In this document: piece after piece, positions 5,070 to 62,570 of the stretch
How the letters are laid out: the number at the start of each line of letters is the position of its first letter
Position numbering within the stretch: position 1 is the first letter of the stretch
Source of the DNA: Heliocidaris tuberculata
Taxonomy: Eukaryota > Echinodermata > Echinoidea > Camarodonta > Echinometridae
NCBI GenBank assembly: GCA_025618425.1
Contig: CM046842.1
Location: 35,314,188 to 35,378,187 of the forward strand
Length of the DNA stretch: 64,000 nucleotides
Direction: 5' to 3'
Made by a program: the position numbers and the translations under genes
The notes under the pieces: generated by a model
The model's database searches: none
What the model was told of the DNA's origin: nothing
The model's input: only the letters and a program-made list of their open reading frames with translations

Positions 5070-5373
5070 ATGGCGTCACAGGGAGGTATTGCCGATGATC
5101 TTCTTGTTAACCTAGCTGAAGACATCGAGACTGGTGAGCAGATGGAGGCGTTAGGACGAGCTCTAGGATTCCAAACAGCAGCGATCAATAGATACACAGA
5201 GACCAACAGGATAGAAGGGCGAGTGACTTGCAAGGGAACACGTGACATGCTGTTTGACTGGAGACAGAGAGTGGATCCTTGCTACCACCATTTCAAGCTG
5301 AAACAAGCTCTAGATAAGGCCAACCTTGTCATGCTGTCTCAGAACCATCTCAAGGACACACCAAACCTACCAG
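5070..5373 (+). CDS. NLR exon 1: N-terminal Death-fold domain
   Basis: Encodes residues 1-101 plus one base of codon 102. The helical amphipathic pattern (LLVNLAEDI, MEALGRALGF, AINRYTE, then the Trp-containing LFDWRQRV and LKQALDKANL) fits a Death domain, the usual N-terminal adaptor module of sea urchin NLRs that recruits partners through Death-Death contacts. ATG 5070 is chosen because it is the first in-frame Met, lies two bases after a strong acceptor, and opens the domain. The donor is CAG|GTGGGC at 5374. It leaves phase 1, which exactly matches the acceptor of exon 2, giving Gly/Asp-type codon completion (GAT). I am fairly sure of the Death fold; other Death-superfamily members cannot be excluded by eye. 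Confidence 0.85.
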
Positions 5374-18955: not shown

Positions 18956-21900
18956 AATAAAAACCCGTCAGGATGGACTGGGTCTTCAGATCAGGGCAAA
19001 CGCAGTCTACCCTGACGACGAGGTGATATTGTCCGGGGTAGTTTCGGGACCGGAGGAGAAATTATTTGATCTCGTCGAGCCTTCGACACGTCTAATATCA
19101 TCTAGTCTGTTTATAGAACAGTGAGAAATTACTACCTTACTTTTTAAAGATTATGTTATTACTTCTATTTTTAAAATAACATCTTCACAAATGATCAAGT
19201 AAAGATAACATAGACATGTATATTCACAAGCCAGAAATCATTCATGCCAACTTAAATAAAAAAAAAATCATTACAGAAAAAAAGAAGAAAAGAGGGGGGG
19301 GGGGGGGGGAGAGAAAAAGGAGAGAGAGAGAAAAAAAGGGAGAATCGAATCGAAGTTTCTTGCATCTATCGGTTTCGTTTTTAATAGCCTTCCTCTTTGT
19401 GTGTGTTTTTGTTCAGGTTTTGTTACTTCATACATTTGACATGAAATATACATCATAATTAATTTCTTGGTCAAGTTAATGTGTTGATTATTTTGATATA
19501 TCCACCTCAAATCCCATTAAACTCAGACATAAGAGTCAATTATTAACAAAGACGATACGGGGTATATTTATGTTATGACAAAGGACCGGTAAGGTAAAAA
19601 AATTTCATACCCTTTTTGTACAGCAGATATCACAAGAAGAAGTATAAACACGCTAGCAGGAAAAATATAATTGAACCATTTTGTAGAAATTAATCTTAAG
19701 ATGATACTGGGTATATTTATGTTATGTTATGACAAAGGACCGGTAAGGTAAAAAAATATCCCATCCTTTTTGTACAGCAGATATCACAAGAAGAAGTTGA
19801 AACACACTAGCAGGAAAAATATAATTGAACCATTCTGTAGAAATTAACCTTAAGAGATGATTCGGTTGAATTTAAACATAATAGAAATCAGCTTGCATGT
19901 ATATTTCCATAAAATTTACAAAGCAATGTAAAATTATGAATGGGATATTTTACACAGTATGGGTCAGAGAACTTTGTCATGTTTACGCTCATTTATTGCA
20001 TGCTAGTTCATTACGTTTTTCACCTGCCAGTCACCCTCTATACCCCCCGTTCTTAAACTGCGGCCCGCTAAAAATATTGAGATGAAAATGTAGAAATAGA
20101 ATAAAAAGCTATTTTTCATGAATTCCTGAATGAATATTTTCCATTTCAAATTCAAAATGACATCAAATGCTGTTAACTGGTATACCATATATCTTAATTT
20201 ATGTTTGGAAAATGTATAATGATAAAAATTAGGATGAGGATGATTAATTAAAGGAGGATGGAGATCTTAAGTGTAAAGTTCGAACTCCATTAAACGTACA
20301 TCATTGGGATGTGCAGGCATATTGATGGAAACCTTTTTCATCCGTATTTAGAACCTTACTAAAAGAGGTTCTATAAATGCTTCTTTATGTTTTCATGAAG
20401 CCCCAAGGTACCTTGTACAACCGACAATGGTTCCTAAGACCCATTTAGAACCATTTGAAAATGGTCTAGTAATGGCTCATTGTAACCTTGAAAGGTTCCA
20501 AATGTGGGACAAGAAAAGGTTTTAATCAACACTATTTTTTCTAGGAGTAAACGGATGAGGCCGTGGACCGACTCCCCCCCCCCCCCCCAACAAACACAAG
20601 AAGGAAAAGGTTTTAAAATCACAATTTATTAGGGAACTTGCCATCTCATGTTCGAGCAGAGAAATGCTTTCTTTGCAAATTTTAATCTAGATTTTTAATG
20701 ATTAAATTATATTTTCACTGCATGAAACCAAGTGTTTTTTCCCCCTATCTCTCTACGGTCACTCACAGAAATTAGAAACTGGAGGGTTGATCAACCTGGA
20801 GAAGTCCACCCTAGCTATGCTATAAATGCAAGACAAGGCTTTATACCATCCGGGGGGAAGGGTACTCAGTATATAGCGTGGGTGGGTATGTGCCGCCTAG
20901 AAGACCCCTATTTTTACAATCGAATTTCCGTTCCAGAGCATACTATTTTTTTTTTTTCTTATCGGGAAAAAGAAGAGAGAAAACCGTTCCAAAGCATCGC
21001 TTTTTATTTTTTCTTCTTCTTCTTCTTTTTATTTGTATTATTTTTTTTTTTTTTATTCCGCCGTTCCGGCCATTCTGGCCCGCCCCGTCTCGAAGAATCA
21101 TTTTTGGTGAAAAGTTAAAAGCGAGTTTCATTCCAGGTGCTTCATCCGGGGCTTTCCCCATTGCTTCCAATCCGGTTCCAGTCCACCCCAGGGAATTCAG
21201 TTATCATTCATGCTGAGCGCATGCATGTGATTTAACCCCACTTATATGAATACACACACCATAGACGTCATAGACTTGCCATGACAAACAGCGTATTTAG
21301 CTGATGGGAGCAAGTGGGCACCAGTTCCGTAGCATATTTATATTGTGATCCAGTTCCAAAGACCTCCTTTTCTCAAAATATTAGTAGTTCCGAAGACCAT
21401 CCTTTTCATGATACGCTCATTCCGAAGTCCCCATTTTTGTCTTGCCAGGGGCACATACCTACCACTTTTGGGGTCGAGTGCCCCCCCCCCCCCCAGCATA
21501 CCATCTCCATCCAAACCACCTGTTCATTGTACATTTAATCCTATTGTCACGTTGCATGCGTACATTATTACTAGTATCATCATCACTGCCATTAACATGA
21601 TTGTTGTAATTGTTACCGTAAGTATTTCCTACATGTATCTAGAAGACGAACTAATTTTTTAACGACTACCATGTTTTCCCTTATTGCTCTTTTATATGCT
21701 ACATGAATAGGTTTTCTGGATCCCTGAACTCCGACAGGCACGTATCAAATGTAAGTAGATCTGATAGGCCTCCTTGTTTAGAATGTTCAAGAAAACAATT
21801 TACACTTTCCGCCTGATGAAAATTACAGCAAAGTAAATGATATTTCTTCCTTTTTTATTGCTTTTCATACTACAATGAAATAATATTTTCCAAAAGTTTT

Positions 21901-24900
21901 TTGGGGGATGGCAAATTATAAATGGCTGAGAAGTTAATAATAAAAAAAAAATAATAATAATAATAATAATAACTATTTGTCGAACACAAGTCGAGCTATA
22001 TGACATGTTATTTCATGTCATTTCTTGTAAGTTTTTGTCAGTTTGTTTACATTTTGCTCCTCTACCGATATACTGCAATTTAGTTCTTTTAGTTCTTTTT
22101 TCCTCAAGTGAATATGATGTAAAAGTGACTCATTCGTTTTCCTTTCTTTCATTACAGATTCCTATGTTGACGATTAAGGACTGCCATCTATCTGCTGAGA
22201 TGACCATCAGGTTGTGGTCCTGCCTCAGATACGTCGGCTCACTGTCCAAGCTTACTATCTCACACTCCTCTCTCAGTTTTCCTCCATCTTCTCCTGAGCT
22301 TCCATCCGTCACAAAGCTGACCGCCAAGAGAGTGACGTCACAGAGCTACGAAGGTCTGTTCTCTTCTTTACCTGGCGTGGGAGAGATCGATATCACTATC
22401 GGAGATGTAGGGAAAGAAGACATATCTCAGATCCAGACTGGTCTTCGTCGACGTCTGACGGGACAGGAGCTCACGCGCATCAAGCTTAAAGCACCCGATT
22501 CACTCCCATCAGAGAAGAATGCATCAAGCGTGTCAAGAGAGACGATGAGAGGACTGGGTCTTCAGATCAGGGCAAACGCAGTCTACCGTGACGAGGTGAT
22601 ATTGTCCGGGGTAGTATTCGGACCGGAGGAGAAATTAATTGATCTCGTCAAGCCTTCGACACGTTTGATATCATCTAGTCTGTATATAGAACAGTGAGTA
22701 ATTACTACCTTACTTTTTAAAGATTATGTTATTACTTCTATTTTTAAAATAACATCTTCACAAATAATCAAGTAAAGATAACACAGTCATGTATATTCAC
22801 AAGCCAGAAATCATTCATGCCAACTTAAATTTTAAAAAAATCATTACAGAAGAAAAAAGAAGAAGAAAGGAGGGGGGGGGGGGGGGGGGAGAAAAAGGAG
22901 AAAAAATGGTGAATCGAATCAAAGTTTCTTGCATCTATCGGTTTCGTTTTTAATAGCCTTCCTCTTTGTGTGTGTTTTTGTTCAGGTTTTGTTATTACTT
23001 CATACATTTGACATGAAATATACATCATAATTAATTTCTTAGCCAAGTTAATGTGTTGATTATTTTAATATATCCACCTCAAATTCCATTAAACTCAGAC
23101 ATAAGAGTCAGTTATTAACAAAGACGATACGGGGTATATTTATGTTATGACAAAGGACCGGTAAGGTAAAAAAATATCTTACCCTTTTTGTACAGCATAT
23201 ATCACAAGAAGAAGTATAAACACACTAGCAGGAAAAATATAATTGAACCATTTTGTAGAAATTAATCTTAAGAGATGATTCGGTTGAAGTTAAACAAAAT
23301 AGAAATCAGCTTGCATGTATATTTCCATAAAATTTACAAAGCAATGTAAAATTATGAATGGGATATTTTGAACAGTATAGGTCAGAGAACTTTGTCATAT
23401 TTACGCTCATTTATTGCATGCTAGTCCATTACGTTTTTCACCTGCCAGTCACCCTCTACATGTATACCCACCGTTCTTAAACTGCGGCCCGCCAATGATA
23501 TTGAGAAGGAAATATAGAAATAGAATAAAACGCTATTTTTTTCATGATCCTGAATGATTATTTTCCATTTCAAATTCAAAATAATATCAAATGCAGTTAA
23601 CTTTTATACTATATCTTAATTTATGTTTGGAAAATGTATAATGATAAAAATTAGAATGAGAATAATTCATTAAACGAGGATGGAGATCTTAAGTGTAAAG
23701 TCCGAACTCCATTAAACGCACATCATTGGGATGTGCAGGCATATGGATGGAACCCTTTTACTTCCGTATTTAGAACCTTACTAAAAGAGGTTCTATAAAT
23801 GCTTCTTTATGTTTTCATGAAGCCCCAAGGTACCTTGTACAACCGACAATGGCCCATTTAGAACCATTTGAAAATGGTCTAGTAATGGCTCATTGTAACC
23901 TTGAAAGGTTCCAAATGTGGGACAAGAAAAGGTTTTAATCAACACTATTTTTTCTAGGAGTAAACGGATGAGGCCGTGGACCGACTCCCCCCCCTCCCCA
24001 ACAAACACAAGAAGGAAAAGGTTTTAAAATCACAATTTATTAGGGAACTTGCCATCTCATGTTCGAGCAGAGAAATGCTTTCTTTGCAAATTTTAATCTA
24101 GATTTTTAATGATGAAATTATATTTTCACTGCATGAAACCAAGTGTTTTTTTCCCCCTATCTCTCTACGGTCACTCACAGAAATTAGAAACTGGAGGGTT
24201 GATCAACCTGGAGAAGTCCACCCTAGCTATGCTATAAATGCAAGACAAGGCTTTATACCATCCGGGGGGAAGGGTACTCAGTATATAGCGTGGGTGGGTA
24301 TGTGCCGCCTAGAAGACCCCTATTTTTACAATCGAATTTCCGTTCCGGAGCATACTATTTTTTTTTTTTCTTATCGGGAAAAAGAAGAGAGAAAACCGTT
24401 CCAAAGCATCGCTTTTTATTTTTTCTTCTTCTTCTTCTTTTTATTTGTATTTTTTTTTTATTCCGCCGTTCCGGCCGTTCTGGCCCGCCCCGTCTCGAAG
24501 AATCATTTTTGGTGAAAAGTTAAAAGCGAGTTTCATTCCAGGTGCTTCATCCGGGGCTTTCCCCATTGCTTCCAATCCGGTTCCAGTCCACCCCAGGGAA
24601 TTCAGTTATCATTCATGCTGAGCGCATGCATGTGATTTAACCCCGCTTGTATGAATACACACACCATAGACGTCATAGACTTGCCATGACAAACAGCGTA
24701 TTTTATAGCTGATGGGAGCAAGTGGGCACCAGTTCCGTAGCATATTTATATTGTGATCCAGTTCCAAAGACCTCCTTTTCTCAAAATGTTAGTAGTTCCG
24801 AAGACCATCCTTTTCACGATACGCTCATTCCGAAGTCCCCATTTTTGTCTTGCCAGGGGCACATACCTACCACTTTTGGGGTCGAGTGCCCCCCCCCCCC

Positions 24901-27900
24901 CAGCATACCATCTCCATCCAAACCACCTGTTCATTGTACATTTAATCCTATTGTCACGTTGCATGCGTACATTATTACTAGTATCATCATCACTGCCATT
25001 AACATGATTGTTGTAATTGTTACCGTAAGTATTTCCTACATGTATCTAGAAGACGAACTAATTTTTTAACGACTACCATGTTTTCCCTTATTGCTCTTTT
25101 ATATGCTACATGAATAGGTTTTCTGGATCCCTGAACTCCGACAGACACGTATCAAATGTAAGTAGACATGATTGGCCTCCTTGTTTAGAATGTTCAAGAA
25201 AACAATTTACACTTTCCGCCTGATGAAAATTACAGCAAAGTAAATGATATTTCTTCCTTTTTTATTGCTTTTCATACTACAATGAAATAATATTTTCCAA
25301 AAGTTTTTTGGGGGATGGCAAATTATAAATGGCTGAGAAGTTAATAAAAAAAAAAAAAATAAAAAAATAATAATAATAACTATTTGTCGAACACAAGTCG
25401 AGCTATATGACATGTTATTTCATGTCATTTCTTGTAAGTTTTTGTCAGTTTGTTTACATTTTGCTCCTCCAAACTACCGATATACTGCAATTTAGTTCTT
25501 TTAGTTCTTTTTTCCTCAAGTGAATATGATGTAAAAGTGACTCATTCGTTTTCCTTTCTTTCATTACAGATTCCTATGTTAACGATTAAGGACTGCCATC
25601 TATCTGCTGAGATGACCATCAGGTTGTGGTCCTGCCTCAGATCCGTCGGCTCACTGTCCAAGCTTACTATCTCACACTCCTCTCTCAGTTTTCCTCCATC
25701 TTCTCCTGAGCTTCCATCCGTCACAAAGCTGACCGCCGAGAGAGTGACGTCACAGAGCTACGAAGGTCTGTTCTCTTCTTTACCTGGCGTGGGAGAGATC
25801 GATATCACTATCGGAGATGTGGAGAAAGAAGACATATCTCAGATCCAGACTGGTCTTCGTCGACGTCTGACGGGACAGGAGCTCACGCGCATCAAGCTTA
25901 AAGCACCCGATTCACTCCCATCAGAGAAGAATGCATCAAGCGTGTCAAGAGAGACGATGAGAGGACTGGGTCTTCAGATCAGGGCAAACGCAGTCTACCG
26001 TGCCGACGAGGTGATATTGTCCGGGGTAGTATTCGGACCGGAGGAGAAATTAATTGATCTCGTCAAGCCTTCGACACGTCTAATATCATCTAGTCTGTAT
26101 ATAGAACAGTGAGTAATTACTACCTTACTTTTTAAAGATTATGTTATTACTTCTATTTTTAAAATAACATCTTCACAAATAATCAAGTAAAGATAACACA
26201 GTCATGTATATTCACAAGCCAGAAATCATTCATGCCAACTTAAATTTAAAAAAAATCATTACAGAAGAAAAAAGAAGAAGAAAGGAGGGGGGGGGGGGGA
26301 AGAAAAAGGAGAAAAAATGGTGAATCGAATCAAAGTTTCTTGCATCTATCGGTTTCGTTTTTAATAGCCTGCCTCTTTGTGTGTGTTTTTGTTCAGGTTT
26401 TGTTATTACTTCATACATTTGACATGAAATATACATCATAATTAATTTCTTAGCCAAGTTAATGTGTTGATTATTTTAATATATCCACCTCAAATTCCAT
26501 TAAACTCAGACATAAGAGTCAGTTATTAACAAAGACGATACGGGGTATATTTATGTTATGACAAAGGACCGGTAAGGTAAAAAAAATATCCTACCCTTTT
26601 TGTACAGCATATATCACAAGAAGAAGTATAAACACACTGGCAGGAAAAATATAATTGAACCATTTTTGTAGAAATTAATCTTAAGAGATGATTCGGTTGA
26701 AGTTAAACAAAATAGAAATCAGCTTGCATGTATATTTCCATAAAATTTACAAAGCAATGTAAAATTATGAATGGGATATTTTGAACAGTATAGGTCAGAG
26801 AACTTTGTCATATTTACGCTCATTTATTGCATGCTAGTCCATTACGTTTTTCACCTGCCAGTCACCCTCTACATGTATACCCACCGTTCTTAAACTGCGG
26901 CCCGCCAATGATATTGAGAAGGAAATATAGAAATAGAATAAAACGCTATTTTTTTCATGATCCTGAATGATTATTTTCCATTTCAAATTCAAAATAATAT
27001 CAAATGCAGTTAACTTTTATACTATATCTTAATTTATGTTTGGAAAATGTATAATGATAAAAATTAGAATGAGAATAATTCATTAAACGAGGATGGAGAT
27101 CTTAAGTTTAAAGTCCGAACTCCATTAAACGTACATCATTGGGATATGCAGGCATATGGATGGAACCCTTTTTCTTCCGTATTTAGAACCTTACTAAAAG
27201 AGGTTCTATAAATGCTTCTTTATGTTTTCATGAAGCCCCAAGGTACCTTGTACAACCGACAATGGCCCATTTAGAACCATTTGAAAATGGTCTAGTAATG
27301 GCTCATTGTAACCTTGAAAGGTTCCAAATGTGGGACAAGAAAAGGTTTTAATCAACACTATTTTTTCTAGGAGTAAACGGATGAGGCCGTGGACCGACTC
27401 CCCCCCCTCCCCAACAAACACAAGAAGGAAAAGGTTTTAAAATCACAATTTATTAGGGAACTTGCCATCTCATGTTCGAGCAGAGAAATGCTTTCTTTGC
27501 AAATTTTAATCTAGATTTTTAATGATTAAATTATATTTTCACTGCATGAAACCAAGTGTTTTTTTCCCCCTATCTCTCTACGGTCACTCACAGAAATTAG
27601 AAACTGGAGGGTTGATCAACCTGGAGAAGTCCACCCTAGCTATGCTATAAATGCAAGACAAGGCTTTATACCATCCGGGGGGAAGGGTACTCAGTATATA
27701 GCGTGGGTGGGTATGTGCCGCCTAGAAGACCCCTATTTTTACAATCGAATTTCCGTTCCGGAGCATACTATTTTTTTTTTTTCTTATCGGGAAAAAGAAG
27801 AGAGAAAACCGTTCCAAAGCATCGCTTTTTATTTTTTCTTCTTCTTCTTCATTTTATTTGTATTTTTTTTTTATTCCGCCGTTCCGGCCGTTCTGGCCCG

Positions 27901-54900: not shown

Positions 54901-57900
54901 TGGATGGAACCCTTTTTCTTCCGTATTTAGAACCTTACTAAAAAGGGTTTCTATAAATGCTTTTTTATGTTTTCATGAAGCCACAAGGTACTTGTACAAC
55001 CAACAGTGGTTCTTAAGACCCATTTTAGAACCCTTTGAAAAAGGTCTAGTAATGGCTCATTGTAACCTTAAAAGGTTCCAAATGTGGGACAAGAAAAGGT
55101 TTTAATCAGCACTATTTTTTTCTAGGAGTAAACGGATAAGGCCGGGGACCGACTCCCCCCCCCCCCCAACAAACACAAGAAGGAAAACGTTTTAAAAATC
55201 TTAATTTATTAGGAAACTTGCCATCTCATGTTCGAGCAGAGAAATGCTTTCTTTGTAATTCTGACATGTATCTAGCTTTTTAATGATTAAATTATATTTT
55301 CACTGCATGAAACCAAGTGTGATTTTTTTCCCTATCTCTCTACGATCACTCTCAAAAATTAGAAACTGGAGGGTTGATCAACCTGGAGAAGTTCACCCTA
55401 GCTACGCTATAAATGCAAGACAGTAAAGACAGTAATACTTTGTAGCCCGCGACGTTAAGAACCCGGGCTCTATACCATCCGCGGGGGGGGGGGGGGGGGC
55501 ACTCATTATATAGCGTGGGTTGGTATGTGCCACCCAGAAGACCCCTATTTTTACACTCAAATTTCCGTTCCAGAGCATACTAATTTTTTTTTTCCTATTG
55601 GGAAAAAAAAGAGAGAAAACCATTCCAAAGCATGCTTTTTTTTTTTTTTTTTCATTCCGTCGTTCCGGCCGTTCTGGCCCGCCCCGTCTCGAAGAATCAT
55701 TTTTGGTGAAAAGTTAAAAGCGAGTTTCATTCCATGTGCTTCATCCGGGGCTTTCCCCATTGCTTCCAATCCGGTTCCAATCCACCCCAGGGAATTCAGT
55801 TATCATTCATGCTGAGCGCATGCATGCGATTTAACCCCGCTTATATGAATACACACACCATAGACGTCATAGACTTGCCATGACAAACAGCGTATTTTGC
55901 TAATGGGAGCAAGTGGGAACCAGTTCCGTAGCATCATATTTATATTGTAATCCAGTTCCAAAGACCCCCTTTTCCCAAAATGTTAGTAGTTCCGAAGACC
56001 ATCCTTTTCATGATACGCTCATTCCGAAGCCCCTATCTTTTGTTTTTTTGTTTTTGTTGTTGTCTTGCCAGGGGCACATACCTACCACTTTTGGGGTCGA
56101 GTGCCCCCCCCCCCCCCGGCATACCATCTCCATCCAAACCACCTGTTCATTGCACATTTCATCCCATTGTCATGTTGCATGCATACACTCGATGTTCAGT
56201 CACTGTTCTATACACTAACTGTACATTCTGTTGGGCATCCTACAATATAAAAATTCAAACATTTTACCAAAAAATATTGGTATTGCATCACATTCAGTAC
56301 AAATTATGTGTCGCAATTACAATATTAGACATCAATAGAATCTGGAAGAAGACTAGATTACATGTATGTTCATGTTGTCATCATATTGAAACATTGCTTT
56401 TACTTTGCAGTGGCCGCAGGGCGTTTTTGAAAGTGTGTGTGTGTGTGTGTGGGGGGGGGGGGGTGGTTGATTTGATTTCACTTGAATAATGACAATTTGA
56501 ACCCTTTTTTCGGAGATGTGATGAAACGTGTCTATTCAAAAAAAAAGAAAAAAAAAAAAAAGTTTGGAGAGCAGTCCTCCCCCCCCCCCCTTTCGGCGGC
56601 CCATTGCAAAATATGAAAAACTTGAAGTTGGGATACAATGGGCATATTTCAATGTGTACATACCTATGACTGGTTTTCAGTCTGTTGACCTAGGTACTTT
56701 CAGTGGCACATTTAGGGATAATTGTGCCCCCATCCCACCCTGCTGCCAAACTCATCAGATCAAAAAGCAATTTTTATGTTATTATTTCATTATTATTATT
56801 ATTATCATACATGTGTAAATATCATTGTTGTTATTATTGTAACATGATTATTTTGTATCATTAATTACATTATTGCTAGTATCATCATCATCACTGCCAT
56901 CAACATGATTGTTGTAATTGTTACCGTCAGTACTTTCAATCTAGAATCCGAACTAATTTTTTAACGACTACCATGTTTTCCCTCATTTCTCTTTTATATG
57001 CTACATGAATAGGTTTTCTGGATCCCTGAACTCCGACAGACACGTATCAAATGTAAGTAGATCTGATAGGCCTCATTGTTTAGAAATGTTCAAGAAAACA
57101 ATTTACACTTTCCTCCTGATTAAAATTACCCAGCAAAATAAATGATATTTCTTCCTTATTTATTGCATTTCATACTACAATAAAATAATATTTTCCAAAA
57201 GTTTTTTTGGGGGTGGCAAACTTTAAATGGCTAAAAAGTTGATAACGAAAAAAAACAAAACAACAACAAACAAACAAAATTAACTATTTGTCGAACACAA
57301 GTCGAGCTATATGACATGTTATTTCATGTCATTTATTGTAAGTTTTTGTCAGTTTTTTTACATTTTACTCCTCTAAACTACCGATATACTGCAATTTAGT
57401 TCTTTTAGTTCTTTTCCCCACAATTGAATATGATGTAAAAGTGACTCATTCGTTTTCCTGTATTTCATTACAGATTCCTATGTTAACGATTAAGGACTGC
57501 CATCTATCTGCTGAGATGACCATCAGGTTGTGGTCCTGCCTCAGATCCGTCGGCTCACTGTCCAAGCTTACTATCTCAGACTCCTCTCTCAGTTTCCCTC
57601 CATCTTCTCCTGAGCTTCCATCCGTCACAATGCTGATAGCCGAGAGAGTGACGTCACAAAGCTACGAAGGTCTGCTCTCATCGTTACCTGGCTTGGAAGA
57701 GATCGATATCACTATCGGAGATGTAGGGAAAGAAGACATATCTCAGATCCAGACTGGTCTTCGTCGACGTCTGACGGGACAGGAGCTCACGCGCATCAAG
57801 CTTAAAGCACCAGATTTACTCCCATCAGAGAAGAATGCATCAAGCGTGTCAAGAGAGACGATGAGAGGACTGGGTATTCAGATCAGGGCAAACGCAGTCT

Positions 57901-60900
57901 ACCGTGGCAACGAGGTGATATTGTCCGGGGTAGTATTCGGACCGGAGGAGAAATTAATTGATCTCGTCAAGCCTTCGACACGTTTGATATCATCTAGTCT
58001 GTATATAGAACAGTGAGTAATTACTACTTTTTTGTGTTTTAAGATTCTTTTATTACTTCCACTTTCAAAATGACATCTTTACAAAAAATCAAGGTAAGAT
58101 ATCATAAACATGTCTATTCACAAACCAGAATCATATATGCAAACTTATATAATCATTACATCGTTTTGTACAATAAAATGAACTATTGAAAATAACTCAA
58201 ACATAACATTTAAATACAAGAACCATCGTTTGCATGGTATTATTGAATGGAAGTTTATATTTCAAATATTTTTAATTTAAAGAGTGAAAAAAAAGGAGGG
58301 GGGGGGGGGAGAATTCTTAAACTTTCTCACATCTATCGGTTCTTTTTTACCAGCCCGCCTCTTTGTGTGTGTTTCTGTATTGGCCGGTATTCTGATAGTA
58401 GGTTTAATATAACCCTAGACTAAAGTTAATCCTAGGTTGACTAAAGTTAATCCTAGGTTAACTAAACTACACTTTAAACCTCACCTCCAGTCTAAGTGTA
58501 GTTAAACTCTATTAGGTATTCTGATGATAGCAAGGTTTAGTTAAAGCTAGGGTTAAAATTTAACCCTATGTTAAATGCCCCACCCAGGTTTAATTACCAT
58601 GGAGAATCTACTGCACATGCTCAGCCTGCTCAGTAGAGCTCATTTGCTCATGAATATTTACATATTGTGCATTAATTCATTGTGGGATATATTATTAGTG
58701 GCTAGTGGCAATCCGAAAATTTATGTATCGGTATGTAGGCTACGTTCTTTTTAACTGTTACATGCTCTTTTTGTTTGTTTGTTCGTTTTTTCTACTGTAT
58801 AACTTGTATAATTCTTTATAAATGCAGTGATTAGGTTTGATTCAATGAAACACATGCAATGAAACCCATTTCCTAATAAAAGAAATAAATAATAAAAAAA
58901 AAAAAAAAAAAAAACAGGGGAAGTGGCGGAATTGTAGGTTTTTCTAGAAATTGAAGAAAAAAAAATAGATCTAGGATCGAATTTATTTTTAATTGTGTAC
59001 CGTAGGCCTATTTCATTTATTTTTTCTTGGCTTTCAAACTGGGGGGGGGGGGGGGGGGGGGTGATAAGGGGCGACATACACCGTTTATAGCCTGCCCTAT
59101 TGCAGTATATGCCACTTCACCGGGGACGGTTATTTCTTCTACCCATATTGTCTACGCGCTGCGCTGTACGTACGTGTGTAACGCTTGCTTAAAGCGCGCA
59201 TCTGCGCTTTAAGCAAGCGCATTTTCGGTGCCAGTGCTTAATATTGTATTTGCATACTTATAACGCCTAGCCCTGGCCTAGGCCTATAGACCTAGTTACG
59301 AGTTTTAATTCTTTACTGGCAAGATCTAACTTTACACTGTATTTTAATCATCTGGAGAATATAGATCTAACTTACATCGGTTACAGAACGGATAATGCCT
59401 CAATTCAAAAAATTGGTGAGTAGGAAACCGTTTATGAATATGACTTGATGTTAAATTCGAGCTAAAAAAGGTTAGCCTAGATCTAGACTAGATCTAGGGC
59501 TAGGTCAACATGGTCAACTGTTTTTATGCTGAATAATCAGCACTAACGTTAACGTTATTAAGCTAAAAGGAAGTTAGAGTTCCTAATTGTAAGTTGTACT
59601 TGTAGACCTAGATCTAGATATAGATCTAGACCCTATGAAAAAGAATAGGTCTAGATCAGAGACTAGTCTAACTAAGTTAGATAACGAGAGTATCGTCAGA
59701 CTCAGCGGAAGATATCCACAAGTAACGAAATTCTAATCTAACTAACGTTAGACTATCTAGGCCTACTTTGAAATCTAAAGTTAGACCTAATCTAGGCCCC
59801 AACTTTTAACGTTAAAACACTAGGAAATCGATCAAACATTACTCATTAGATCTACGGTTACTTTTGAAGTAGAGACTAACTTAGTCTAACTTAGACTCTG
59901 ACAGTTAGACTTAGGCTACTGTTAGGCTACTAGATCTAGGTCTAACGACAACAGTTAGATCTAACAAGTTGTAGTAGCTAGAATCTAGATAGAAATCTAC
60001 TTAAACTGTAAACAAACGACCAAAAACTCAACAATTTAACTGTTAAGTAACGTTACTCTCTGCACACACACACAAAATAAGATAACAGTAGATCTAACAC
60101 TAAATAGTTACGGTAGGCTAATAATAAAATTTGTTCAGAATAATCTACCGTATAGTATGAGTAGATCTATTTATTCATCTGTTCTTCAACATTTTGTTAA
60201 ATGGCCGCCTTTTTGTAGATCTGGACTCTAATACAGGCAATTTCGCTGCAAAAAAATAAAAATAAATTTAGGGTCCAACGTTAGACAATGTTCGGTAAAC
60301 GACCTTTTTGTGCCAGGTCTGCGAGAATTTCGCAAATAATAGTGATCATCAAAGATGATGTAGGGTATAATTATTGTTATGGTAAATGACCAGTAAGTAA
60401 GGTACTAGACATTATTCTACCCTCTTTTACAAAAGATATCACAAGAAGAAGTAAACCTATACAAATACTAGCAGGGGGAAAACCCTGTTAAAAATAAAAG
60501 CTTTGAAGAAATTAAGCTTGGGAGATGAATCAGTTAATGTTGAAAAGCTTTTCATATTATTATAGATCTAATAAAATCAATGTCCAATTATGAAATGGGA
60601 TATTGTAGAACCTTATTTTGAACACTATGGATCAGAGAACTTTGTCATGTTTATGTTCATGTTTATTTCATGTTTGTCCATTCCATTTTTCACCTGTCAG
60701 TCACCCTCCATACCATCTCCATCCAAACCACGTGTTCATTGTACATTTCATCCCATTGTCATGTTCCATGCATACACTCAATGTTCAGTCACTGTTCTAT
60801 GTATACACTCACTGTACATTGTATTCAAGCTATACACACTACGTGTCATGGTCATTGCTAAACGTATTACACAATGTTATCACTCTCTCACATACATACA

Positions 60901-62570
60901 CACTCCCATGCATCTCTCTCATGACAATATTTTAATTCGTATACTATAACTAAGTAATAAGCTTTATTTTCTTCTTCTTTTTCTTATAATTATCGTTATC
61001 ATTATTTTTATTATCATTATCATTATTGTCATTAACATGATTGTTATTATTGTTACCATCATTACTTTCACTTTAGAAGCCGAAATAATTTATTACCGAC
61101 TGTCTTGTTTTTCCTCATCTTTCTCCTATAGGTTTTCTGGATCCCTGAACTCGTACAGACGCGTATCAAATGTAAGTAGGCCTGATAGGCCTCATTGTTT
61201 AGAAATGTTCAACAAAAGCGATTTAAACTTTCCGCCTCATGGAAAATACATCAAAATAAATGATATTTTTCTTTCTTATTTATTGAATTGTACCAAAGGC
61301 TTAGTTCATACTTCAATTGAATATTTTTCAAACGATTTTTATTTTGGTAGAAAATTTGTTAATGGCCAAGAAGTAAATTAAAATAATTTTTTTTTTTTTT
61401 AAAGTGAAATTATTTATCAGAACACAAGTAGAGAAACATGACATCTTATTTCATGTGATTTCTTGTCAGTTGATTTATATGTTGCTTCTCCAAACCAATT
61501 TAGTTCATTTATAAAACGCCTTTCTCTCGTCATTAAGATTCATCAGAAGAACTCAACTCGTAAAGCGTATAATTATTTGTCCATGACAGCGAGAGGAACA
61601 GATTATATGTAACTCTCTATATTGAATATGATGTACATGTAAAATTGATGCATTCATTTTCCTGTATTTCATTACAGATTCCTATGTTAACGATTAAGGA
61701 CTGTCATCTATCTACTGAGATGACCATCAGGTTGTGGTCCTGCCTCAGATCCTTCACCTCACTGTCCAAGCTTACTATCACAGACTCCTCTCTCAGTTTC
61801 CCTCCATCTCCTCCTGAGCTTCCATCCGTCACAATGCTGATAGCCGAGAGAGTGACGTCACAAAGCTACGAAGGTCTGCTCTCATCGATACCTGGCTTGA
61901 AAGTGATCGATATCACTATCGATGATGCAGAGAGAGACATATCTCAGATCACGGCTTGTCTTCGTCTGACCCGGGGACAGCAGCTCACACACATTAACCT
62001 TCATGCACCGGACTCACTCCCATCAGAGAAGAAGAATGTATCGAGAGAGACGATGAGAGGACTTGGTCTTCTGATCAGAGAACAAACCAAGAACCTACAG
62101 TGGCTGTATGTGTACAGGGTGAAGTGCACAGACGAGGAAGACTTGGTTTACCTCGTCGAGTGCTGCAGACATGTGAAGACGATGAAATACGTAATGTAAG
62201 TTCTCGTTCAACTCATAATATAAAATAGATTTTATGAGATGATTCTATTCTATTTGTCTGCAGTATTATTAAACGCTTAATGGTAAGAATGCATTGAGGG
62301 ATGTAGCCTCTTTTTTATTTTATTTTTTTTATTTTGGTTTTATTATTATTTCTCCTTATTGTTGCTTTTATATTTCAATTTGTAGTATTAGTACTAGTAT
62401 ATCTTTATACAACTTGAGCAAAATAAACTTACAGTTACCTTACTATATTTAGATTTATTATCATGATAAATATATTTTTAATTTGTTATTACTGTTATTA
62501 TTATTGGTACTATAATAATTATAATCATTATGAACAGTATTATTATTATAGGTTCTTCCGGCCACTTTAA
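5070..62570 (+). CDS. Gene span: multi-exon NLR-type receptor (Death-NACHT-LRR-like repeats)
   Basis: Predicted gene model of 30 exons: 5070-5373, 11676-13270, 14103-14629, 15857-15899, 16171-16673, twelve micro-exon/large-exon pairs from 21711 to 62195, and 62552-62570. All introns have GT..AG borders. The phases chain without conflict: 1, 0, 2, 0, 2, then 0 and 2 alternating. The lengths sum to 9,912 nt, an exact multiple of three, for about 3,303 residues. The domain order Death, NACHT, LRR-like is that of the NLR family expanded in sea urchins, whose members are presumed cytosolic sensors of microbial or danger signals that oligomerise through NACHT and signal through the Death domain. 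Function here is inferred from the family. The exon set actually used in mRNA is unknown: cassettes may be skipped or alternative. A 5' untranslated exon upstream of 5068 is likely but was not found. Confidence 0.8.
5374..7597 (+). other. Intron 1, first part: no gene recognised
   Basis: Contains homopolymer C and G runs (about 6076-6093, 6410-6432, 7070-7085, 7382-7391) and degenerate copies of a CTCGGTCGCTACGCTCCCTC-like motif at about 5771 and 6827. A related copy lies upstream at 3552. Nothing coding is visible. Confidence 0.5.
7598..8687. mobile_element. Large foldback (inverted-repeat) element, arms about 330 bp
   Basis: The left arm at about 7598-7927 is the reverse complement of the right arm at about 8355-8687 with few mismatches. 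Landmarks paired in the two arms include TAGCAACAACTTG with CAAGTTGTTGCTA, GTCGACTTTCACAGCTCTG with its complement, and TTTAGTCCCTTTTG with CAAAAGGGACTAAA at the outer ends. The 430-bp spacer holds A/T-rich DNA and a GAT/ATG simple repeat (about 8260-8345). There is no transposase, so this is probably a non-autonomous foldback transposon in intron 1. Confidence 0.85.
8260..8345. repeat. GATGAT-type simple repeat
   Basis: Imperfect (GAT/ATG)n in the spacer of the foldback element. It yields a Met/Ile-rich open frame that is not a gene. Confidence 0.85.
8669..9091. mobile_element. Short inverted-repeat element sharing ends with the foldback
   Basis: The motif CATGCAAAAGGGACTAAATC occurs twice in tandem at 8669 and 8697. 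Its inverse, GATTTAGTCCCTTTTGCATG, occurs at 8891-8910 and again at 9072-9091. This suggests a MITE-like unit, or nested units, built from the same terminal sequence that closes the 7598-8687 foldback. Confidence 0.65.
9092..10935 (+). other. Intron 1, middle part: no gene recognised
   Basis: Holds a poly-G run near 9500-9516 and a (GTT)n microsatellite at about 10317-10337. No coding signal or clear transposon ends are visible. Confidence 0.5.
10936..11622. mobile_element. 687-bp palindromic element with CACTGTAAAAAAA ends
   Basis: It begins CACTGTAAAAAAA (10936) and ends TTTTTTTACAGTG (to 11622). Long stretches of the left half recur inverted in the right half, for example AGGTGTTTACTAGATAAACA against its complement around 11450-11472. 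A third, direct copy of the inner block lies near 11265-11345. There is no coding capacity. It is a non-autonomous DNA transposon inserted in intron 1, ending 53 bp upstream of the NACHT exon. Confidence 0.8.
11676..13270 (+). CDS. NLR exon 2: NACHT NTPase domain
   Basis: Encodes residues 102-633 (1,595 nt, phase 1 in, phase 0 out). Walker A is AGRGKTT (about residues 196-202) with Lys200 as the nucleotide-binding lysine. Walker B/Mg site is ILDGLDEY, with Asp276, Asp279 and Glu280. Sensor 1 is VLVTTRP (Arg314). The segment EFYHKLAQEHSAG near 500-511 matches the winged-helix F-x-H-x-x-x-Q-E-type motif that follows NACHT in NLRs. No motif residue is missing, so ATP-driven oligomerisation is plausible. 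The acceptor is a clear pyrimidine-rich TTATTATTCCAG before 11676. The donor is GAG|GTATGC at 13271: reading on instead reaches a stop at 13307-13309, and only the 13271 donor gives the phase-0 join to exon 3. The absence of introns inside NACHT is typical of NLR genes. Confidence 0.93.
13271..14102 (+). other. Intron 2, with GA microsatellite
   Basis: 832-bp intron. Contains a poly-G run at about 13349-13361 and (GA)n at about 13500-13525. It ends in ATTAAAACAG at 14102. Nothing else is recognised. Confidence 0.75.
14103..14629 (+). CDS. NLR exon 3: first LRR-like exon
   Basis: 527 nt, phase 0 to 2, residues 634-809. It is a paralogue of all later large exons. It shares LWSCL, ITDSSLSF, SYEGL.SSLP, EIDVTIDY and a closing EETLVDLF segment. 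The leucine/isoleucine spacing (LxxLxIxxSSLSF, then ..EIDVTI) is LRR-like and somewhat degenerate. This region of NLRs normally makes the ligand-sensing solenoid. The donor GGA|GTAAGT at 14630 is a near-consensus site. This exon is clearly diverged from the amplified copies, so it is an older member. Confidence 0.88.
14630..15436 (+). other. Intron 3, first part: no gene recognised
   Basis: AT-rich intron with a poly-C run near 14841-14852 and ATT/TTA simple sequence near 15300-15420. I see no other structure. Confidence 0.6.
15437..15749. mobile_element. MITE-like element with CAGGGGCGGATCCAGG ends
   Basis: Perfect 16-bp terminal inverted repeats: CAGGGGCGGATCCAGG at 15437-15452 and its complement at 15734-15749. 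The interior has poly-G and poly-C runs and a short internal duplication around CCAGAATTC. It has no coding capacity. It lies 108 bp upstream of micro-exon 4. Confidence 0.85.
15857..15899 (+). CDS. NLR exon 4: 43-nt micro-exon (ancestral type)
   Basis: Flanked by ATGTAG at 15851-15856 and CAG|GTAACT at 15900. Phase 2 to 0, so it bridges exon 3 (out phase 2) and exon 5 (in phase 0). It encodes the end of a split Glu codon and then SECGSRNNDRYAVQ. This is one residue longer than, but recognisably related to, the FSGSLNSDRHVSN of the amplified micro-exons. It is too short for ORF-based gene finding; the call rests on borders, phase and homology. Confidence 0.8.
16171..16673 (+). CDS. NLR exon 5: second LRR-like exon
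   Basis: 503 nt, phase 0 to 2, after TTTATTGCAG and before GAA|GTGAGT. The protein shares IKHCQLSTEMTAKLWSCL, ISDSSLSF and SYEGLLSSLPGLNEIDIPI with the array exons. Its second half (LLISEQTPNQQWL, RDEEVLIDLF) matches exon 3 and the last array exon better than the core copies. It is in frame to join the first array micro-exon at 21711, skipping the pseudoexon at 18975-19120. Confidence 0.88.
16681..16722. repeat. (TAGATC)n simple repeat
   Basis: TAGATC units immediately after the exon 5 donor. The same AGATCT-rich composition recurs near 16900-17170 and strongly at 59300-60240. Confidence 0.85.
17381..18254. mobile_element. Palindromic element rich in GCGGCCGC-like ends
   Basis: The left end near 17381-17400 (CTGGTGTGCGGCCGCT) is inversely similar to the right end at about 18235-18254 (CCGGCCGCCCACAGGAGCAC). 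Inner copies of related GC-rich blocks lie at about 17565-17600 and 17820-17875, in an otherwise AT-rich 0.87 kb. It is probably a non-autonomous transposon or nested pair in the intron after exon 5. Confidence 0.55.
18273..18400. repeat. Strong hairpin, arms about 42 bp
   Basis: The left arm 18273-18314 (CTAGACCGAAAATTCTGTCT, then GTTAGCCTCTTATT) pairs with the right arm 18358-18400 (AATAAGAGGCTAAC, then AGACAGAATTTTCGGTCTAG). The loop is about 43 nt. It is likely a small MITE. Confidence 0.75.
18919..18953. repeat. (CA)n microsatellite at the left edge of the array
   Basis: AC-dinucleotide run that ends about 20 bp before homology to the tandem array begins. It marks the probable breakpoint. 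Confidence 0.9.
18975..19120 (+). pseudogene. Truncated LRR-like pseudoexon at the array start
   Basis: 146 bp match only the 3' quarter of the large exon, starting at GGACTGGGTCTTCAGATCAG and ending at ATAGAACA. The 5' part and the acceptor are absent; a (CA)n run precedes it. The donor has changed from GTGAGT to GTGAGA. It cannot be spliced as an exon without a new acceptor, and exon 5 joins 21711 in frame without it. Confidence 0.88.
19554..19853. repeat. 149-bp tandem duplication inside the first unit
   Basis: The block starting GATACGGGGTATATTTATG at 19554 is repeated from 19703 (GATACTGGGTATATTTATG), including GACAAAGGACCGGTAAGG and the run to AATTAATCTTAAG. Later units have one copy. 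This accounts for the first spacing (3,573 bp) exceeding the usual 3.41 kb. Confidence 0.85.
21711..21750 (+). CDS. Array micro-exon 1 (40 nt)
   Basis: Borders are ATGAATAG and AAT|GTAAGT. Phase 2 to 0. It completes the preceding split codon and encodes FSGSLNSDRHVSN. It uses the AGG arginine codon, as in copy 7, where most copies use AGA. It joins exon 5 to large exon 1. Confidence 0.82.
22158..22693 (+). CDS. Array large exon 1 (LRR-like, 536 nt)
   Basis: Phase 0 to 2 after CATTACAG; donor GTGAGT at 22694. Landmarks of the family: IPMLTIKDCHLSAEMTIRLW, then LSKLTISHSSLSF, VTSQSYEGLFSSLPG, EIDITIGD, SRETMRGLGLQIRA and EEKLIDLV. Specific to this copy: Tyr in CLRYVG where others have Ser, TAKRVTS, GDVGKED, and one codon missing before DEV (YRDEV). 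It is the most divergent of the ten core copies, consistent with its edge position. LRR-like, inferred from hydrophobic spacing. Confidence 0.88.
23460..24903 (+). repeat. 1.44-kb intron segment present in array units but absent before the last module
   Basis: In array units, TCACCCTCTACA is separated from CATACCATCTCCATCCAAAC by about 1.44 kb. At 60704-60727 the two flanks are directly joined (TCACCCTCCATACCATCTCC). The segment includes AAAGGTTC-type repeats (about 23753-23940) and the palindromic transposon. Confidence 0.7.
24262..24902. mobile_element. Palindromic transposon carried in every array unit (unit 1 shown)
   Basis: The left part (CCGGGGGGAAGGGTACTCAG, then GTGGGTGGGTATGTGCC) is inversely similar to the right part (GGGGCACATACCTACCAC, then GGGGTCGAGTGCCCCC). 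It is about 640 bp, with no intact protein. The same element recurs at equivalent places in all units and, more diverged, at about 55475-56118. It rode along with the amplification. Confidence 0.65.
25118..25157 (+). CDS. Array micro-exon 2 (40 nt)
   Basis: AG and GTAAGT borders, phase 2 to 0, encoding FSGSLNSDRHVSN with the AGA arginine codon. Followed by the common intron start GTAAGTAGACATGATTGG. Confidence 0.82.
25570..26108 (+). CDS. Array large exon 2 (LRR-like, 539 nt)
   Basis: Represents the commonest protein version: RSVG, TAERVTS, GDVEKED, SQIQ, DSLPSE, YRADEV. Copies 3, 8 and 9 encode the same residues. It has the strict TGACGTCA octamer within the VTS codons, as do all large exons. 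Confidence 0.88.
28531..28570 (+). CDS. Array micro-exon 3 (40 nt)
   Basis: Same sequence and borders as micro-exon 2; phase 2 to 0. Confidence 0.82.
28984..29522 (+). CDS. Array large exon 3 (LRR-like, 539 nt)
   Basis: Protein identical to copy 2. It differs silently or nearly so at the DNA level (ATGTTGACG rather than ATGTTAACG near the start, CGTTTAATA rather than CGTCTAATA near the end). Confidence 0.88.
31944..31983 (+). CDS. Array micro-exon 4 (40 nt)
   Basis: Same as micro-exon 2; AG and GTAAGT borders, phase 2 to 0. Confidence 0.82.
32397..32935 (+). CDS. Array large exon 4 (LRR-like, 539 nt)
   Basis: As copy 2 except Pro for Gln in DISPIQTG, shared only with the neighbouring copy 5. 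That is the pattern expected from duplication of adjacent units or local gene conversion. Confidence 0.88.
35360..35399 (+). CDS. Array micro-exon 5 (40 nt)
   Basis: Same as micro-exon 2; AG and GTAAGT borders, phase 2 to 0. Confidence 0.82.
35812..36350 (+). CDS. Array large exon 5 (LRR-like, 539 nt)
   Basis: Carries DISPIQTG (shared with copy 4) together with TAKRVTS (shared with copies 1 and 10). It is a mosaic of variants found separately elsewhere in the array. Confidence 0.88.
38773..38812 (+). CDS. Array micro-exon 6 (40 nt)
   Basis: Same as micro-exon 2; AG and GTAAGT borders, phase 2 to 0. Confidence 0.82.
39225..39760 (+). CDS. Array large exon 6 (LRR-like, 536 nt)
   Basis: Has CCAGATTTACTCCC (PDLLPS) where other core copies have PDSLPS; this variant is otherwise seen only in the diverged copy 11. 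It also lacks one codon (YRDEV), like copy 1. Frame and phase are kept. Confidence 0.88.
42180..42219 (+). CDS. Array micro-exon 7 (40 nt)
   Basis: FSGSLNSDRHVSN with the AGG codon. It is followed by GTAAGTAGATCTGATAGG, the intron start of copies 1 and 11 rather than of the other core copies. Confidence 0.82.
42632..43170 (+). CDS. Array large exon 7 (LRR-like, 539 nt)
   Basis: As copy 2 except YRGDEV (Gly for Ala). The intron just upstream (about 42285-42340) has a run of differences shared with copy 11, so a conversion tract probably ends near this exon. Confidence 0.88.
45591..45630 (+). CDS. Array micro-exon 8 (40 nt)
   Basis: Same as micro-exon 2; AG and GTAAGT borders, phase 2 to 0. 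Confidence 0.82.
46042..46580 (+). CDS. Array large exon 8 (LRR-like, 539 nt)
   Basis: Protein identical to copy 2; CGTCTGATA near the 3' end distinguishes it at the DNA level. Confidence 0.88.
48997..49036 (+). CDS. Array micro-exon 9 (40 nt)
   Basis: Same as micro-exon 2; AG and GTAAGT borders, phase 2 to 0. Confidence 0.82.
49448..49986 (+). CDS. Array large exon 9 (LRR-like, 539 nt)
   Basis: Protein identical to copies 2, 3 and 8. The downstream intron has a shortened poly-G region (about 50165-50175) that tags this unit. Confidence 0.88.
52402..52441 (+). CDS. Array micro-exon 10 (40 nt)
   Basis: FSGSLNSDRHVSN with the AGA codon. The following intron reads GTAAGTAGACATGATAGG, a hybrid of the two intron types in the array. 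Confidence 0.82.
52853..53391 (+). CDS. Array large exon 10 (LRR-like, 539 nt)
   Basis: Last of the near-identical core copies. Has TAKRVTS and YRANEV (Asn for Asp). It combines a variant of copies 1 and 5 with the Asn seen otherwise only in copy 11. Confidence 0.88.
54350..54813. mobile_element. Insertion of about 465 bp in the unit after core copy 10
   Basis: Homology to the array stops after AATGTATAATGAGAAAAAT and resumes with TTATTAAACGAGG near 54825. The insert starts with CTGACGA, a GAACAG..CTGTTC hairpin and GAAAC (54354-54384). It then has a TTTC-rich region and a short palindrome GGTGTACAAACACC. It appears to be a transposed sequence of unknown family. The open frame at 54701-55105 straddles its right edge and is not a gene. 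Confidence 0.65.
55475..56118. mobile_element. Diverged copy of the palindromic transposon carried by array units
   Basis: Equivalent to 24262-24902, with GTGGGTTGGTATGTGCC on the left and GGGGCACATACCTACC on the right. It is more divergent, with an extra T/G-rich insertion near 56035-56063. This supports copy 11 being an older unit. Confidence 0.6.
56119..57012 (+). other. Intron before micro-exon 11, expanded
   Basis: Relative to core units this stretch has an extra 0.6-0.7 kb, including a (GT)n/poly-G run near 56433-56463 and an A-run/C-run pair near 56538-56590. No gene is recognised. Confidence 0.55.
57013..57052 (+). CDS. Micro-exon 11 (40 nt), diverged module
   Basis: Same 13-residue product as the core micro-exons, with the AGA codon. 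Followed by GTAAGTAGATCTGATAGG. AG and GT borders and phase 2 to 0 are conserved although the surrounding intron has diverged. Confidence 0.82.
57474..58012 (+). CDS. Large exon 11 (LRR-like, 539 nt), diverged module
   Basis: Differs from core copies by ISDSSL (Asp for His), MLIAERV, GLLSSLPGLEEID, GDVGKED, PDLLPS, GLGIQI and YRGNEV. Several of these residues match exons 3, 5 and 12, so this copy is intermediate between the old exons and the recent core. Donor GTGAGT at 58013; frame open throughout. Confidence 0.88.
58385..58575. repeat. Palindromic repeat built from TTAACC/CCTAGGTT motifs
   Basis: GGTATTCTGAT occurs at about 58386 and 58514, flanking repeated CTAAAGTTAATCCTAGGTT units and their complements (TTTAGTTAAAG, AGGGTTAAA). 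It is probably a small inverted-repeat element. Confidence 0.55.
59182..59219. repeat. Perfect 16-bp hairpin with 6-nt loop
   Basis: Left arm CGCTTGCTTAAAGCGC (59182-59197), loop GCATCT, right arm GCGCTTTAAGCAAGCG (59204-59219), with no mismatch. It could be a small RNA or regulatory structure or a transposon relic; no other support is visible. Confidence 0.8.
59300..60240. repeat. AGATCT/TCTAG-rich tract
   Basis: About 0.9 kb with very frequent GATCTAG, TAGATCTA, CTAACGTTA and GTTAGACTA words in both orientations. No fixed period is visible. It is a degenerate simple-sequence region. Confidence 0.6.
61132..61171 (+). CDS. Micro-exon 12 (40 nt), most diverged module
   Basis: After TCTCCTATAG and before AAT|GTAAGT. 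Encodes FSGSLNSYRRVSN: Tyr and Arg replace Asp and His of the other copies. Phase 2 to 0 retained. Confidence 0.82.
61172..61677 (+). other. Intron between micro-exon 12 and large exon 12
   Basis: 506 bp, related at both ends to the equivalent core intron. A unique inner part at about 61500-61620 contains no gene. Confidence 0.7.
61678..62195 (+). CDS. Large exon 12 (LRR-like, 518 nt), last module
   Basis: Phase 0 to 2 with donor AAT|GTAAGT at 62196. The first half resembles copy 11 (MLIAERVTSQSYEGLLSSIPG). The second half (GLGLLIREQTKNLQWLYV, DEEDLVYLV) resembles exons 3 and 5 rather than the core, so it preserves the older version of the module's C-terminal part. The end, CCRHVKTMKYVM, is unique. 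Confidence 0.87.
62552..62570 (+). CDS. Candidate terminal exon with stop codon
   Basis: After TTATTATTATAG. In phase 2 it completes Met and adds FFRPL, then TAA at 62568-62570. The DNA (GTTCTTCCGGCCACTTTAA) resembles the start of the micro-exon (GTTTTCTGGATCCCTGAAC), so this may be a decayed micro-exon that now supplies the stop. The pyrimidine tract is weak. The true terminal exon could lie further on or outside the window. Confidence 0.45.

Follow-up and report, generated by a model that had tools for sequence, protein, structure and literature searches.

A recently expanded array of frame-neutral exon pairs in the LRR-like tail of an NLR-type gene of Heliocidaris tuberculata

The stretch of DNA analysed here, the window, comprises 64,000 nt from the sea urchin Heliocidaris tuberculata (C11:35314188-35378187, in a genome totalling 897 Mb) and carries on its plus strand an NLR-type gene in which a Death-like exon, a NACHT exon and LRR-like unit exons are followed by twelve exon pairs, each made of a micro-exon and a large exon. 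Positions without a C11 prefix are those of the window, and all of the features listed lie on its plus strand. The first exon, E1 (5070..5373), contains the ATG and ends in phase 1, and its match to the Pfam Death domain (PF00531) is weak, falling under the curated cut-off (E 0.0081, 16.7 bits against 22.6). E2 (11676..13270; phase 1 in, phase 0 out) matches the NACHT domain PF05729 with an E value of 1.7e-15 and 57.7 bits against a cut-off of 26.7, and a sequence search of the PDB gave NLRP3 as its best match (E 4e-5), with NLRP3 and NLRP6 chains at E values of 4e-5 to 5e-5. These matches support assignment of the gene to the NLRs, as a NACHT-type STAND receptor, in agreement with the preliminary description of this DNA. 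The tail opens with the first LRR-like unit exon, E3 (14103..14629, phase 0 to 2), a 43-nt small exon, E4 (15857..15899, phase 2 to 0), and a further LRR-like unit exon, E5 (16171..16673, phase 0 to 2). Between E5 and the pairs lie a 3' fragment of a large exon (18974..19120), which is also present in sibling gene G with 2 differences in 145 positions, and the intron after it (19121..21710), which from ~1 kb on represents the partner of the putative founding crossover described below and recurs in the introns of array units. Use of the fragment as an exon was rejected, as its frame is incompatible after E5. An Rfam search of the window matched nothing.

The pairs begin with a 40-nt micro-exon at 21711..21750 and a 536-nt large exon at 22158..22693 (pair 1), and continue with pair 2 (25118..25157 and 25570..26108, the large exon of 539 nt), pair 3 (28531..28570 and 28984..29522), pair 4 (31944..31983 and 32397..32935), pair 5 (35360..35399 and 35812..36350), pair 6 (38773..38812 and 39225..39760, the large exon of 536 nt), pair 7 (42180..42219 and 42632..43170), pair 8 (45591..45630 and 46042..46580), pair 9 (48997..49036 and 49448..49986) and pair 10 (52402..52441 and 52853..53391). 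Pair 11 (57013..57052 and 57474..58012) belongs to an older unit with flanks like those of sibling genes, and pair 12 joins a micro-exon at 61132..61171 to the 518-nt terminal large exon at 61678..62195, which is fast-evolving among siblings. All twelve micro-exons are 40 nt long, with AG upstream and GTAAGT downstream. The large exons measure 539 nt (nine), 536 nt (two) or 518 nt (one), and all twelve are preceded by AG, with GTGAGT as the donor in 11 and GTAAGT in one.

The large exon starts in phase 0 and ends in phase 2, the micro-exon does the reverse, and the arithmetic given in the preliminary description is correct for all pairs, as are the intact borders and open frames that it reported for twelve out of twelve. 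Neither exon alone is frame-neutral; the pair consists of two exons with equal outer phases inside a multi-kb unit, and its length is always a multiple of 3 (192, 193 or 186 codons). The array joins E5 in frame, as had been claimed, and the resulting 29-exon model (Death, NACHT, E3, the 43-nt exon, E5 and 24 array exons) is stop-free over 9,893 coding nt and 3,297 aa, with exon end phases of 1, 0 and 2 and then alternating 0 and 2. Removal of pairs 1-11 from the model leaves the frame open at 1,176 aa, which bears out the proposed frame neutrality of the pair, and skipping of single exons, tried for six of the 24 array exons, led to an early stop in five, the sixth being the terminal exon. All of the pairs are presumably spliced into one transcript.

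The phase-2 donors of the large exons (14630, 16674, 22694 and others to 62196) read TAA or TGA when unspliced, so that a transcript left unspliced would terminate directly after any large exon; the donor of the terminal exon, GTAAGT at 62196, doubles as an immediate stop codon. Comparison of the tail past 62195 with six siblings singled out no 3' exon, because the whole flank is conserved and is 92-98% alike over 0.6-2.8 kb.

The unit of the array is ~3.41 kb long, and a direct-repeat search registered copies at this spacing, whereas Tandem Repeats Finder did not report the array because its longest period is 500. Units U1-U9 are 98.94-99.85% identical with introns included (36 comparisons over 3.4 kb), differ from one another by 5-36 substitutions per 3.4 kb, and carry private substitutions in six of nine cases. 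Twelve pairs exist, but the twelve-fold amplification previously described does not hold for recent copies: pairs 11 (57013-58012) and 12 (61132-62195) are diverged and of greater age, and the recent amplification is therefore ten-fold (U1-U10). Among U1-U9, 1 of 40 columns varies in the micro-exon and 11 of 539 vary in the large exon; of the introns, the short one has 13 variable columns in 413 and the long one 35 in 2957. Since exons are kept no better than introns and identity is ~99% throughout, the open frames within the array appear mainly to reflect its youth and would constitute weak evidence of selection. Twelve codons vary among U1-U10, and the ten recent copies translate into seven different proteins, a few residues apart. 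A count by hand gave 6-7 synonymous and 7 non-synonymous changes, with 138 of 537 sites being synonymous (P 0.09 to 0.04), and this synonymous excess hints only weakly, if at all, at constraint. The repeats thus exceed 85% identity within the C-terminal region of an NLR, a region that presumably serves in sensing.

The long introns of the array point to how it may have arisen. All four introns examined (U1, U2, U6 and U9) are hybrid, with one junction ~1 kb after the donor: the first ~900 nt match the intron of U10, and also that of sibling F, and from ~1,050 nt onwards they match the intron of the upstream fragment. In steps of 150 nt, substitutions between the U2 intron and the fragment's intron drop from 5-19 to 0-3, and those between the U2 intron and the U10 intron climb from 0-4 to 9-15. 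Over its first 900 nt the array intron is 99.2% identical to the second-unit intron of sibling F and 94.3% identical to the fragment's intron, and over the 600 nt that precede the following micro-exon U2 is 99.5% identical to the fragment's intron, compared with 57% for U10. U10 retains the first kind of intron, matching the second unit of sibling F over a stretch that starts at nucleotide 18 of the large exon and takes in 2.5 kb of intron (98.1% over 3,067 columns). A segment of ~0.47 kb of the U10 intron (54350-54815) is present in sibling F and absent from U2, so that U10 holds one parent intron whole and the units before it are hybrid. The hybrid introns and their agreeing ends suggest that the array was founded by a single unequal crossover between two related introns, which produced a tandem unit composed of micro-exon, large exon and hybrid intron. 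A founding exchange located within the large exon, at the site of the fragment, was rejected, as the switch lies in the intron and the first 900 nt are only 94.3% like the fragment's intron. The shared variants of U1-U9 form a mosaic, with the four-gamete test failing for 145 of 276 informative pairs of sites, and this points to later exchange among the copies.

A search with the NACHT protein, in which 81 of 112 candidates were scored, gave at least 18 further full-length or near-full-length matches with identities of 49% or higher, of which 15 lie on C11 and one has stops; for the terminal exon, all 104 candidates were scored. Unit exons were counted by assigning hits to genes by position, leaving out the incomplete or disrupted genes H, I and N. 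The studied gene has 14, and the siblings have 7 (C), 5 (B, D, D', E and G), 4 (F), 3 (J), 2 (K and L) and 1 (M), with half-size exons in O (8) and O' (9), such that the number of units is 1-5 in 10 of the 13 counted sibling loci. Sibling G contains E3, two E5-like exons, a fragment of the 18974-19120 type, one array-type unit and one terminal unit. Small exons found in six sibling genes, 12 of them 40 nt long and 2 of them 43 nt long, all have the same phase pattern. Since these 14 exons share their pattern with the 43-nt exon and E5 of the studied gene, the phase symmetry is, on this comparison, older than the array and ancestral. A search for small exons in the type-2 units of siblings gave no clear result.

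Arrays are also present elsewhere in the family. Gene C has a four-unit array with a spacing of 3.26 kb, and loci O and O' (C11:7194856-7222902, plus strand, and 9392956-9418121, minus strand), which lie in opposite orientation, have their own 2.28-kb repeat. Only 2 of 1,569 NACHT-exon bases separate O from O', and a flank differs at 1 of 1,071 bases plus 16 gap columns, and yet O contains 4 near-identical full repeat copies and O' contains 6 plus 1 partial, so that the change in repeat number put forward in the preliminary description is observed in a sibling gene. O and O' represent either duplicates or two haplotypes in one scaffold, and assembly error may contribute to the copy difference. 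Elsewhere on C11, the NACHT exon of sibling E (C11:35934266-35935855, minus strand) is 97% identical to that of the studied gene, and its tail is laid out like that of gene B, whose NACHT is 73% identical; NACHT and tail thus seem to have been exchanged between genes in sibling E. Two further sibling copies of similar spacing, each with five units, lie 5.2 Mb apart (C11:35776138-35802574 and 40938170-40964593, both on the minus strand).

Terminal and internal units evolve at different rates. For the terminal large exon of eight genes, a set that left out C_last (one stop), D_last (5' part replaced) and two internal units of the same type (B_int and E_int), the ratio of non-synonymous to synonymous rates (omega) is 2.08, with a log likelihood (lnL) of -1388.68 compared with -1393.56 for omega 1; pairwise comparison gives a ratio of 1.59 (0.95-3.15). 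With B_int and E_int added, omega is 1.63 (lnL -1553.62 compared with -1556.68) and the pairwise ratio 1.08 (bootstrap 0.71-1.76). The array-type exon has an omega of 0.46 over the whole exon (lnL -1194.22 compared with -1199.39 at omega 1) in a set of 12 that includes 6 of the studied gene's 11 array-type units and leaves out H_arr (one stop), and the DNG set, without Dp2 (two stops) and H2 (frame), has an omega of 0.99. Whole-exon omega therefore exceeds 1 in the terminal unit only, and at this whole-exon level diversifying selection was not detected within the repeated units.

The terminal exon was also compared with its flanks. In six genes, including gene C with its stop in the terminal exon, its divergence surpasses that of either flank in all 15 pairs, which are not independent, and pooled divergence is 5.10% in the terminal exon, 3.06% in the upstream flank and 1.52% in the downstream flank. 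In the five intact genes, without gene C, 53 of 518 sites of the terminal exon vary, compared with 21 of 551 downstream (P 3e-5) and 15 of 289 upstream (P 0.017). The non-coding flank at 62196-64000 and beyond is more alike among siblings than the terminal exon in the pairs compared. Pooled flank figures for the array-type unit were set aside, because the downstream flank of A_U2 is non-homologous (38-39% apart) and the upstream flank of D1 barely aligns, so that the figures overstate neutral divergence.

The cassettes encoded by the exon pairs are predicted to adopt an LRR-like fold, as the structural matches of the predicted array-type exon are, by title, mostly LRR proteins, including NLRP1 and ribonuclease inhibitor. 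Exposed strand positions are the usual contact surface of LRRs. In the terminal exon (10-row set), 25 of 51 residues in or beside the strands predicted for the array-type exon are variable, compared with 26 of 121 elsewhere (P 0.0005), and the same test on the array-type unit gave 9 of 52 and 19 of 127. The preliminary description called the tail the sensing region, a designation that draws on family knowledge, the predicted LRR-like fold and the fast evolution of the terminal unit.

Taken together, these results are best explained by a recent cassette array, made by crossing-over in the LRR-like tail of an NLR, in which length would be set by cassette number and specificity would lie at the tip, a reading to which a probability of about 0.6 is given. 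The gene would belong to an NLR family located mostly on one chromosome, with a Death-like region, NACHT and an LRR-like tail, the tail being built of cassettes of ~190 residues that each comprise a micro-exon and a large exon with equal outer phases. One internal cassette would have been multiplied about ten times, recently, via unequal crossing-over, in which the intron after that cassette was first exchanged with the related intron after the upstream exon fragment, followed by exchange among the copies. As all cassette borders are in one phase, gain or loss of cassettes would keep the frame and leave the tail free to lengthen or shorten. The internal cassettes would then act as a conserved spacer or multivalent scaffold, and the C-terminal cassette as the recognition tip. 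A further step can be put forward only tentatively, at less than even odds: a division of labour in which internal cassette number sets reach or valency and the terminal cassette diversifies under positive selection, with arrays re-arising in siblings and segregating as length alleles. The earlier proposal of selection maintaining the pair as the unit of change finds no support in that form, as the phase pattern is ancestral, the founding crossover lies within introns and the synonymous excess is small; ancestral phases and an intronic crossover suggest that frame neutrality came for free.

Several observations weigh against this interpretation and some of them favour others. The predicted structure of the array-type exon has a mean pLDDT (a per-residue confidence score) of 60, with the first 80 residues mostly at ~75-87 and a poor end, which weakens the strand calls; Foldseek gave no match with an E value of 0.001 or better, and some of its rows are unrelated enzymes. 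In genes O and C the pair lacks a clean small exon, and a 49-nt candidate in gene O has no donor at 3 of 6 places, so that the two-exon rule is not shown in that gene. Introns as conserved as exons within the array, the small size of the synonymous excess (P 0.04-0.09) and the sufficiency of 1-5 units in most sibling loci would all be expected of a neutral, transient expansion, that is, a recent tandem duplication without selected effect, tolerated via the symmetric phases or residing in an allele that no longer works. Such an expansion is considered rather unlikely, as at least two more genes of the clade have arrays of their own and the array-type unit shows purifying selection when siblings are compared, although neither amounts to proof that copy number matters.

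The ~34 kb of units at ~99.5% identity are also hard to assemble, and stretches of 500 N are present at other places in the sibling cluster, so that the assembler might have multiplied fewer real copies. This is improbable for the array as a whole, as the window contains no N, the units differ by the private and pairwise substitutions given above, and the array is bordered by diverged units downstream and by the fragment's intron upstream, although a miscount of a few units is possible. Full splice borders on each pair, and a frame that is open with and without pairs 1-11, would equally suit pairs that are alternative and not cumulative, with one or few per transcript, as in mutually exclusive exon arrays. 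Choosing among copies with only seven distinct proteins, few residues apart, would yield little diversity, and this option is considered improbable.

Many animals without adaptive immunity hold large NLR families, and the gene described here offers a testable route by which such receptors might diversify: entire exon pairs are gained or lost from a presumed sensing tail with the frame preserved, and the adjoining terminal cassette evolves faster than the non-coding DNA that flanks it. The studied gene, with eleven array-type units, and sibling G, with a single one, provide a natural comparison, and the copy-number difference between O and O' could allow the rate and use of such length change to be measured.

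The WD40, TPR and ANK repeats of fungal NLRs are far shorter than the ~190-residue cassette. The preliminary description knew of no NLR with an intragenic array of this kind, which is too broad a statement, as near-identical, copy-variable repeats occur in Podospora HET-D/HET-E and melon Vat. In Podospora HET-E/HET-D (HNWD) and other fungal NLRs, C-terminal sensing repeats are >80% to 100% identical, their number changes by unequal exchange, and some sites are under diversifying selection (PMC12222747, PMC4986451). The studied gene is similar in being a NACHT-type NLR with near-identical C-terminal repeats; it differs from HET-E/HET-D, as they are described there, in that its repeat is LRR-like, ~190 residues long, spread over 3.4 kb with two introns, and found in an animal. 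Excess amino-acid change lies here in the terminal and not the repeated unit, unlike in the fungal NLRs as far as these sources describe them, and the gene is not assigned to that class. In PMC8012345, melon Vat is described as having 1-7 near-perfect 65-residue repeats (R65aa) in its LRR region, all in exon 2 and varying in number by line, with unequal crossover proposed; the same source cites flax M, where loss of a repeat unit is linked to lost resistance. Whereas the Vat repeats thus lie in one exon, each copy here is an exon pair with long introns. The closest gene anatomy is that of human LPA kringle IV type 2, whose 5.6-kb unit holds two exons of 160 and 182 bp plus an intron of 4 kb and is present in 1 to >40 copies per allele (PMC6314250); a multi-kb two-exon unit in near-identical copies, introns included, is found here too, although LPA is not an NLR and its domain is unrelated. 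In vertebrate NLRP genes, as outlined in PMC6642158, LRR modules lie on mostly frame-preserving exons and alternative splicing alters NLRP3 activity; there a single exon preserves the frame, whereas in the studied gene only the pair does so. Among the titles and abstract openings listed in a literature search that covered few subscription papers, there was no report of an intragenic array in an animal NLR. The system is thus new in combination, bringing together an animal-type NLR, an LRR-like cassette of ~190 residues, a two-exon unit and a fast end unit, with precedents in fungi and plants, and if the tentative division of labour holds it would represent an intron-containing animal equivalent of melon Vat and fungal HET-E.
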